A stretch of DNA of 64,000 nt from assembly GCF_000368825.1 (NCBI RefSeq), contig NZ_KB849717.1, positions 1,153,601 through 1,217,600 on the forward strand, read 5' to 3'. This stretch comes from Acinetobacter ursingii DSM 16037 = CIP 107286 (GTDB lineage: Bacteria; Pseudomonadota; Gammaproteobacteria; Pseudomonadales; Moraxellaceae). Within the stretch, counting starts at the first letter, position 1; the number at the start of each line of letters is the position of its first letter. Position numbers and translations under genes: made by a program. Shown piece by piece: positions 28,771 to 30,549 of this stretch. Below the pieces are notes generated by a model. The model was not told the origin of the DNA and did not search any database. It saw nothing but the letters and a program-made list of their open reading frames with translations.

Positions 28771-29085
28771 CTATTTCAAAAGTTTAAATTTTGCGATAAG
28801 CCATAATACCAAAGGCCAAAATATCGTATTCAGAATATCGTGCAAACTTGCATCAAACCGCCAATATCCATAGTTAATCAAATCGTCTCTGGCATCAAGC
28901 AATTCTGCGCTAATTGCAATCAAAACCACTGCAAATAAAGCCCAAATGGATTTTAATTGGCGTTTATCTAAAAAAGCCACGCAGAAAAAAACCAACAAAC
29001 CTGCATAAATATGCAAAGCATCGCGTGTCAAATCAGTCAAATTGACGATATAGATTTTAAATTCTTGAAATTTTGAGTGATACAT
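28771..29085 (-). CDS. Small membrane protein, 104 aa
   Basis: Three hydrophobic segments (about 24-40, 46-62, 84-102) connected by charged loops, with a LDARDDLINYGYWRFDASLHDILNTIFWP motif between the second and third. This is reminiscent of VanZ-like or teicoplanin-resistance-type small membrane proteins, but not enough to assign. It starts only about 40 bp downstream of the terminator of the candidate small RNA, so it probably has little room for its own promoter and may be transcribed by readthrough. Confidence 0.75.
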   Translation of the reverse strand: MYHSKFQEFKIYIVNLTDLTRDALHIYAGLLVFFCVAFLDKRQLKSIWALFAVVLIAISAELLDARDDLINYGYWRFDASLHDILNTIFWPLVLWLIAKFKLLK

Positions 29086-29123: not shown

Positions 29124-29294
29124 AAAAAAATCATAACCCGAGTTCTGCATCCTGCAAAACTCGGGCAAATGAGGTTGTGCTTTCAGTCTTTTTTGTTATT
29201 GTAAGAGTTGCTTCCCTAGCGTCATCAAATCCTTGATGCTCATCCTTCAGCTTAGTCTTCCATAGTCGGGATATTCCATTCCCTATTCCTGTGC
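29124..29294 (-). ncRNA. Candidate CsrA/RsmA-sequestering small RNA (RsmY/RsmZ type)
   Basis: A predicted transcript of about 170 nt between a minus-strand -10-like element (TATTCTATAT, 29300-29310) and a hairpin plus T-run at 29124-29165. The RNA contains at least eight GGA motifs: AGGAA and GGGAA near the 5' end; TGGAA in the loop of GGGA..TCCC (29268-29283); TGGAAG; AAGGAT in 29238-29252; GGAT as loop of a perfect 6-bp CATCAA/TTGATG stem (29223-29238); GGGA in the GCT/AGC loop (29210-29220); and GGA as the loop of TGCA/TGCA inside the terminator (29146-29156). GGA in hairpin loops is the CsrA recognition pattern. A GacA box is upstream. No coding frame fits. Deduced from sequence only. Confidence 0.68.
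29137..29165 (-). terminator. Terminator of the candidate small RNA
   Basis: CCCGAGTT and AACTCGGG form an 8-bp stem extended by TGCA/TGCA around the loop GGA (minus strand). The minus-strand TTTTTTT run begins six bases after the stem. Confidence 0.75.
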
Positions 29295-29299
29295 TGATA

Positions 29300-29310
29300 G
29301 ATATAGAATA
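29300..29310 (-). promoter_or_regulatory. Likely -10 region of the small RNA promoter
   Basis: Minus-strand TATTCTATATC offers overlapping -10 hexamers. No good -35 lies 17 bp upstream, as expected for an activator-dependent promoter. Confidence 0.45.
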
Positions 29311-29354
29311 CCTTCTGGGAACTTGACTGCCTATTCGCTCAAGACCGCATTTAG

Positions 29355-29372
29355 TGTAAGTAATTGCTTACA
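29355..29372 (-). promoter_or_regulatory. GacA-type upstream activating sequence
   Basis: TGTAAGCAATTACTTACA on the minus strand is an exact match to TGTAAG-N6-CTTACA, the GacA box described upstream of rsm RNA genes in Pseudomonas. It is itself an inverted repeat (7 bp with the flanking G/C). It is centred about 70 bp upstream of the predicted RNA start. Confidence 0.75.
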
Positions 29373-29391
29373 CCGATATTGTGGTGGCAGC

Positions 29392-30549
29392 TTAACTTTT
29401 ATAAGCCTGTGCGATGTCAGCCGTCACAATTTTTTCCTCTTTCTCTGCTTTACTAATCCCTTCCTGAATCGCGTCCTGAGCGGCCTCATGATCATCTTGC
29501 GTTTCTGGCAATTCTTCTTGGATTTGCTCAAAAATCCGTCCCGTTTGTAACACGACATACACAGGAAAGTGATCTGAGCCAATATTCGGTAATCGATTCA
29601 TTTTAACTAAGGCAAAATCGGTACTATGGAAAATATGATCCAGAGACCAGCGCAACAAAGGATAGTTGGCATGAAAGGTATTAATGAAATGCCGCCCAAC
29701 TCGCGGATCAAGCAAACCACTAATTCGCTGAAACAGACGTGTGGTTCGTGACCATGCTACATCGTTGAGATCGCCCATCACAATACAGCTTTCATCCAGA
29801 TCCTTGATTTGATCACCCACCATTAGCAACTCAGCATCGCGCAAAGTTGAATCTTTTGCTTCGGTTGGACTTGGTGGTTTGGGATGCAGACAATAAAGTT
29901 GCACGGCCAAGCCGCTGGGTAAAATCACCGTGGTATGAATCGATGGAATTTCATCACTCAAGATAAACTTCACTTCGGTATCTTGGAGTTGCAATCGGCT
30001 GTACAAATGCATACCGTATAAATTATCTAGTGGCACAGGAACCCGATACGGATAATCTGCTTCAATCACACTCAATTCATTTTGCCATGTTTGATCAGTC
30101 TCTAAAGTCAGAACCAGATCTGGTTTTAACTTTTGAATCTGCTCAATCAATAAATGATATCGATCATTCGGTGTTAAGACATTGGACACTAACAACGAGA
30201 TTTGCTGATCTGGATTGAACTGTTCGGCTTTCACTTGTTTGACCTGTTTCTTCCAGATAAAGGTATAAGGCAATACCATTTTTAGCTGATACGCGATTGC
30301 TGCGATTAAACCGATTACGATCAATTCTCGAGGCAGATTCCACGGCGCGTCGCAAAACAATACAAACAATAAGGTCACTACACCGACAGCTAAAATTTGC
30401 AGTCTGGGGAAATCGGCTCCTCGAATCCACCATTCGTCGCGTGGAATAAGTGACCAGAATGTCAGCCAAATCACCACTACAGCACACACTTCAATAAATA
30501 GTAACAATGCCTGATCCACCCTAGATTTTATTGATTTTTCATTCTTCAA
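29392..30549 (-). CDS. Endonuclease/exonuclease/phosphatase-family membrane protein
   Basis: 385 residues. Three N-terminal membrane helices (about 13-33, 48-67, 75-95) precede an EEP (DNase I-like) domain with PDLVLTLETDQTW, LYCLHPKPPSP, catalytic GDLNDVAWS and the terminal GSDHFPVYV (SDH motif). An acidic coiled C-terminal tail follows (about 335-385). The catalytic domain probably faces the periplasm. The substrate is unknown. Homologues occur widely in Acinetobacter and Pseudomonas as conserved membrane EEP proteins. Confidence 0.85.
   Translation of the reverse strand: MKNEKSIKSRVDQALLLFIEVCAVVVIWLTFWSLIPRDEWWIRGADFPRLQILAVGVVTLLFVLFCDAPWNLPRELIVIGLIAAIAYQLKMVLPYTFIWKKQVKQVKAEQFNPDQQISLLVSNVLTPNDRYHLLIEQIQKLKPDLVLTLETDQTWQNELSVIEADYPYRVPVPLDNLYGMHLYSRLQLQDTEVKFILSDEIPSIHTTVILPSGLAVQLYCLHPKPPSPTEAKDSTLRDAELLMVGDQIKDLDESCIVMGDLNDVAWSRTTRLFQRISGLLDPRVGRHFINTFHANYPLLRWSLDHIFHSTDFALVKMNRLPNIGSDHFPVYVVLQTGRIFEQIQEELPETQDDHEAAQDAIQEGISKAEKEEKIVTADIAQAYKS

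Follow-up and report, generated by a model that had tools for sequence, protein, structure and literature searches.

A conserved predicted small RNA of Acinetobacter with GGA motifs and a GacA-type box, probably an antagonist of CsrA

In the established Gac-Rsm pathway GacA drives the synthesis of RNAs whose GGA sites titrate CsrA, and in Pseudomonas the palindromic box TGTAAG-N6-CTTACA is the established GacA site. Outside Acinetobacter such Rsm/Csr antagonist RNAs are a familiar class. For A. baumannii, Table 1 of one review has GacSA controlling pili, motility, biofilm, metabolism and virulence, and lists RsmX, RsmY and RsmZ as found by genome inspection, with Kulkarni et al. 2006 as the source, and as not experimentally characterised (PMC7366521). 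Table 2 of a 2017 paper predicts further Rsm RNAs in Acinetobacter ADP1, at ACIAD0018/0019 and ACIAD2750/2751 (PMC5568370). The csrA gene is reported to be essential for the growth of A. baumannii on rich media (PMC12802169), and in A. baylyi the growth phenotype of gacA or gacS loss requires csrA, with non-coding RNAs named only as a model in the available part of the paper (PMC12455638); an RNA between GacSA and CsrA is likewise given only as a model in the available part of another (PMC12442408). An A. baumannii interactome study found the small RNA Aar to be lower in a gacS mutant, and CsrA, Rsm and GacA are not mentioned in the available part of its text (PMC11472050).

The window, the whole stretch of 64,000 nucleotides of Acinetobacter ursingii DNA that was analysed, contains a locus for which a first-pass annotation had proposed a GacA-controlled Rsm/Csr decoy RNA on the minus strand. 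That reading is supported by conservation of the locus, by the presence of CsrA and a GacS-like kinase in the same genome and by the presence of GacA in the genus. The locus, here called unit A, is very probably a free-standing gene for an Rsm/Csr antagonist small RNA that is activated by GacA and titrates CsrA. The features of the locus, in the order in which they are met along the minus strand, are as follows.

29392-30549, minus strand: upstream neighbour, an endonuclease/exonuclease/phosphatase family protein (ORF; Pfam PF03372, 115.6 bits), a landmark outside the unit
29355-29372, no strand assigned: GacA-type box, palindrome TGTAAG-N6-CTTACA, exact match
29331-29338, minus strand: conserved promoter element GCGAATAG, about 40 nt 5' of the RNA start (conserved spacer columns, 65 rows)
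29305-29310, minus strand: -10 hexamer TATTCT (T62 A61 T38 T58 C53 T62 of 65 rows)
29124-29298, minus strand: unit A, the predicted small RNA, about 175 nt long (box-to-start spacing, 48-sequence alignment, covariance model)
29247-29297, minus strand: helix 1 (RNA 2-6 with 48-52), closing a 5' domain that holds four GGAs; two-sided changes in 3 of 5 pairs, 95.4% of cells paired
29268-29283, minus strand: helix 2, a hairpin with GGA 29277 in its loop; two-sided changes in 3 of 4 pairs, 99.0% of cells paired, GGA in 48 of 48 sequences
29223-29238, minus strand: helix 3, hairpin CATCA-AGGATT-TGATG with GGA 29232 in its loop; two-sided change in 1 of 5 pairs, 95.8% of cells paired, GGA in 48 of 48
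29173-29181, minus strand: near-invariant unpaired stretch AGCACAACC (48-sequence alignment)
29137-29165, minus strand: stem of the intrinsic terminator, whose loop contains GGA 29152; two-sided changes in 5 of 13 pairs, 99.0% of cells paired, GGA in 48 of 48
28771-29085, minus strand: downstream ORF of 104 aa, outside the unit (no Pfam family; not constant behind the RNA in relatives)

The box, described in the first-pass annotation as perfect, is indeed an exact palindrome, TGTAAGTAATTGCTTACA, and only one further site with at most two mismatches occurs in the window, where 2.9 would be expected by chance. The RNA had been placed, correctly, about 70 bp from the box; its conserved start, at 29298 on the minus strand, lies 74 nt from the start of the box and 65 nt from its centre. 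The latter distance could be measured in the 33 of 71 rows that matched both the start and the terminator patterns, and is 65 nt in 31 of them, 64 in one and 66 in one. The element GCGAATAG at 29331-29338 is possibly one component of a GacA-type promoter signature. No ORF covers the middle of the RNA (positions 7-76 tested). A comparison with the Rfam models for RsmX, RsmY, RsmZ and CsrB, which had been suggested as a check, gave no family at the gathering threshold anywhere in the window; at the locus itself E values of up to 10 admitted only three unrelated families, and the lack of an Rsm/Csr match was counted against the decoy reading.

The minus strand carries exactly eight GGA motifs from 29289 to 29152, where the first-pass annotation had put eight or more, and no 150-nt stretch of the whole window has more, whichever strand is read. 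Eight or more GGAs arose by chance in 52 of 5000 mononucleotide shuffles and in 241 of 2000 dinucleotide-preserving shuffles; as the latter often reach eight, the count alone is weak evidence and it is conservation that carries the case. Counting a GGA as kept when it lies within two bases of its aligned place, six of the eight are kept in all 48 aligned sequences and the other two in 39 and 35. In the RNA body (positions 1-118) conservation in 48 of 48 sequences was found for five of seven GGAs as against one of 111 other trinucleotides, a disparity suggesting that selection in the body acts on the GGA itself, and the sole non-GGA trinucleotide that is fully kept overlaps a GGA. The tail, made up of the terminator and the stretch leading to it, has 57 trinucleotides, 10 of which are kept in all 48.

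Folding of the RNA gave -43.6 kcal/mol (z = -2.73), a value reached by one of 200 shuffles. A four-helix structure drawn from the 48 sequences has 97.8% of its cells paired, and two-sided changes affect 12 of its 27 pairs and 58 cells, compared with means of 4.3 and 12.1 after shuffling and with none of 500 shuffles as high; in controls in which the structure was slid along the alignment the paired cells dropped to 30-46%. In this consensus structure the GGAs at 29277, 29232 and 29152 are in hairpin loops, in keeping with the earlier claim of looped motifs, and those at 29289 and 29261 are unpaired. The terminator is as strong as had been claimed, its stem running from 29165 to 29137 and being followed by a T-run to 29124.

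A search with the upstream nuclease protein yielded 70 loci, 64 from Acinetobacter (one of them classified only as Moraxellaceae), five from Psychrobacter and one from Moraxella, and the box, the GGA loops and the terminator, whose conservation had been proposed as a check, are all conserved among the relatives. At each of the 64 Acinetobacter loci the box stands 10-82 bases 3' of the same nuclease gene, and the RNA has between six and 11 GGAs in its first 170 bases. No more than 19 of the 64 boxes are exact, which was counted against the decoy reading; 41 have one mismatch, three have two and one has three. The five Psychrobacter loci have a box with one or two mismatches and three or four GGAs, and there is no box behind the nuclease gene at the Moraxella locus. 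Elsewhere in Moraxella boevrei, near a 5S rRNA gene, an exact box accompanies a GGA-bearing RNA (L131, 1427-1700; a weak model match, E 0.02). The alignment consists of the window and 47 of the 64 Acinetobacter loci, rows at least 93% alike having been removed; mean pairwise identity over the 48 sequences is 0.81 in the box, 0.49 in the spacer, 0.69 in the RNA and 0.25 downstream. Row L073, with no box behind the nuclease gene, was omitted, as were, from the alignments, the Psychrobacter rows including L069, for which the nearest-box rule had picked another site.

Of the 249 genomes of the family the covariance model matched 90, namely 84 of 91 Acinetobacter and six of other genera; the total of 91 rests on the assumption, judged from list order, that 139 non-matching genomes belong to other genera. 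The RNA is thus absent by the model from seven of the 91, and this too was counted against the decoy reading; at relaxed thresholds three of the seven gave no match and four gave none better than E 0.37. In three of the seven the nuclease gene is present with no box behind it, and in the other four the nuclease gene was not found. Of the seven, three fell within the GacA search, and all three of those keep GacA. Genome G237 has a two-mismatch box and the RNA beside asd, and the search found no copy of the nuclease gene there. Genome G060 has, between what we take to be an exonuclease-III-like gene and an ArsC-like gene, a stretch that resembles such an RNA in being GGA-rich and having a terminator (L190:2560-2730; model match, E 1.2e-6). 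There is no GacA box with it, the best site there having four mismatches.

The box with at most one mismatch occurs at 14 places in the genome from which the window comes. At five of these sites a GGA-rich RNA with its own terminator stands at the same distance from the box (A, B, C1, C2 and C3), and D is a probable sixth.

Unit A, the window locus, minus strand: the widely conserved member of the set
Unit B, L002, G000:C7:608081: box, GGA-rich RNA and terminator; it lies behind what are presumably genes of a type VI secretion cluster
Unit C1, L001, C4:9627: box, GGA-rich RNA and terminator; its neighbours are presumably a transposase-like gene and a VapBC-like pair
Unit C2, L005, C2:329099: box, GGA-rich RNA and terminator; situated before what we take to be purE
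Unit C3, L214, C8:1240190: box, GGA-rich RNA and terminator
Unit D, L215, C8:1275605: probable; three GGAs, of which two are at hairpin tips; follows recD

The remaining eight sites (L004, L210, L211, L212, L213, L216, L217 and a second L215 site) have no clear unit; that in L004 is inside a 193-aa ORF and the second L215 site is at most marginal. Units C1, C2 and C3 are related to one another, with 71-83% identity across their matching parts, and B shows a weaker kinship to them (z 4.9-8.2 in local alignment, a level that none of 200 shuffles reached). By the same measure A is unrelated to the B and C units (z -0.5 to 0.4) and has at most a faint likeness to D (z 2.4, six of 200 shuffles as good), and a search for duplicates of A in its own genome gave one significant copy only. 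All six have a GGA in the terminator loop. Four of the five clear units, C1 being the exception, have a GCS-type motif at -40/-41, as do four of nine rows taken from other genomes. Across eight loci containing other units Rfam gave a single match, a 5S rRNA.

The distribution of these other units is uneven. A. ihumii also has unit C3, there behind a box with two mismatches, and in A. baylyi the neighbour gene of C3 is present (L219) with no unit passing the filter. At the place of B, G237 has a relative of the B and C units that is nearer to C2 and C3 than to B. In A. pittii, B and C2 are absent from the syntenic places, and stretches of 400 kb and 320 kb filtered for units gave none. Unit D is found behind recD, on the minus strand, both in A. 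baylyi (L220, about 6329, one-mismatch box) and in A. pittii (L229, about 8990, exact box); in the latter a second, weaker unit adjoins it on the minus strand at L229:8543. Evolution experiments with A. baylyi are reported to have repeatedly yielded mutations in a small RNA at recD/ACIAD0400, and csrA mutations were selected in them as well (PMC11426457). By its position unit D is that RNA, which would then be a CsrA decoy.

The feature of unit A that GGA binding does not explain is AGCACAACC, for which a role as a base-pairing seed is possible. Columns C120, A121, C122, A124, C125 and C126 are invariant in all 48 sequences and A118, G119 and A123 are kept in at least 90%; the counterpart is ACACAACC in the strongly diverged copy of G237 and AGCACAGCC in another genus. 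One alternative to a pure decoy, to be entertained only tentatively, is thus a bifunctional RNA, at once a CsrA decoy and a base-pairing small RNA with AGCACAACC(U)CAU as its seed, possibly aimed at Shine-Dalgarno regions since it contains ACCUC. The near-invariance of the stretch, its survival in diverged copies and its retention although the 3' letters available for pairing vary all speak for this, but its complement is not enriched within the window (18 sites with two mismatches or fewer, against an expectation of 20.4), the stretch may instead serve termination or contact with an RNase or protein, and units B, C1, C2, C3 and D lack it in the sequence portions compared. The fuller proposition, that unit A is a CsrA sponge with an mRNA seed in AGCACAACC(U)CAU and heads a group of about six RNAs whose promoters are laid out alike, the recD-linked one included, is rather unlikely. 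If it were true, one GacA-controlled transcript would unite the titration of CsrA and the direct control of mRNAs.

The simpler reading of unit A as a GacA-activated CsrA antagonist calls for a CsrA and for the GacS/GacA pair. The genome encodes one CsrA, which scores above the Pfam and NCBIfam cut-offs and is nearly identical to E. coli CsrA across its first 52 residues. About 26 kb before the window there is a 931-aa hybrid kinase that combines HisKA, ATPase, receiver and Hpt domains. Among the NCBI families BarA fits it best, at 565 bits, below the cut-off of 890, and judged by its sequence it is a BarA/GacS-like kinase. The search for the GacA family returned a strong match, of 261-274 bits, in 98 of the 99 Acinetobacter genomes sampled, the NCBI cut-off being 280. 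In the assembly that contains the window the best match reached only 81.8 bits, two further searches also found no gacA, and the neighbour gene of gacA is likewise missing. Loss of GacA in the strain was suspected at first and was set aside in favour of a probable assembly gap, because the whole 12-kb neighbourhood is missing whilst six relatives hold gacA (four close ones and two others, at 92-94% identity to the query). What is missing is the region homologous to L163, at least 12 kb and presumably comprising hom, thrC, gacA, pilS and pilR; the 12-kb stretch of a relative has no counterpart in the assembly save two matches of less than 150 bases. None of the 18 contig-end stretches (8 kb each, or the whole of C5, with the last 890 bases of C3 excluded) matches the 40 kb around gacA, so a gap would have to exceed that length, which counts against an ordinary gap; the likeliest explanation would be a missing contig. 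The lack of gacA in the assembly and the scores of GacA and the kinase below their cut-offs were likewise weighed against the decoy reading.

These results also bear on the suggestion, which we regard as improbable, that the GGA-rich RNA binds CsrA and that its palindrome answers to a regulator other than GacA. It draws on the lack of gacA in the assembly and on half-sites such as TGTACG or TGTAGG in many other species, but the box is that of GacA in Pseudomonas, a strong GacA match was found in all 98 of the other genomes sampled and the missing segment has the appearance of a lost contig.

Over 68 loci the nearest recognised downstream gene, as judged by four genes of the window, is convergent in 29 and on the same strand in 31 (two different genes), and there is none in eight, three of which are cut by contig ends; because the downstream gene varies, the RNA is its own gene. 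That the RNA is instead the 5' end of an mRNA, a leader or attenuator whose terminator is a regulated switch, is very improbable: the same-strand 104-aa ORF does start about 40 nt 3' of the terminator in the window, but the idea is largely refuted by downstream genes that vary and are often convergent and by G237, in which box and RNA persist beside asd and no copy of the upstream nuclease gene was found.

If unit A is a free-standing antagonist of CsrA, as we consider very probable, the course of events would be the following. Phosphorylated GacA would bind the box and activate a promoter that has no evident -35 hexamer, and RNA polymerase would make a structured RNA of about 175 nt, stopping at the strong terminator. 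The RNA would display six to eight GGA sites, several of them in hairpin loops, and so could bind several CsrA dimers, with the result that CsrA-controlled mRNAs are freed. Unit A would be the widely conserved member of a set whose other members in this genome are the GGA-rich, box-driven RNAs B, C1, C2 and C3, which are clear, and D, which is probable. Provided with a covariance model and with synteny, the locus is likely to represent a core RNA in most Acinetobacter species, and it points to a common nature for small RNAs that have appeared scattered, among them the recD/ACIAD0400 RNA found mutated in evolution experiments (PMC11426457).

Amongst known systems the closest in genus and in predicted role are the Rsm RNAs predicted in Acinetobacter. 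The earlier suggestion that the element might be undescribed therefore holds in part: no characterised Acinetobacter RNA of this kind was found in a literature search that had most subscription journals and supplementary tables outside its scope, but Rsm RNAs had already been predicted, as the two tables cited at the outset record (PMC7366521, PMC5568370). The set predicted in 2006 may include the locus of unit A. The ADP1 loci of 2017 are unlikely to do so, since on A. baylyi contig C2 gacA is at 383 kb, recD with unit D at 246 kb and unit A at 173 kb, so that starting from gacA one passes recD before reaching unit A, which would adjoin ACIAD0400.

RsmX, RsmY and RsmZ of Pseudomonas resemble unit A in having a GacA-type box, a short RNA with looped GGA repeats, an intrinsic terminator and several copies; unit A differs from them in the lack of an Rfam match, in the GGA of its terminator loop and in the near-invariant AGCACAACC. 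The CsrB and CsrC RNAs of Escherichia coli and Vibrio offer many GGA sites to CsrA, which is the mode of action proposed for unit A, but they are longer and have more sites than the eight GGAs that unit A carries in about 175 nt.
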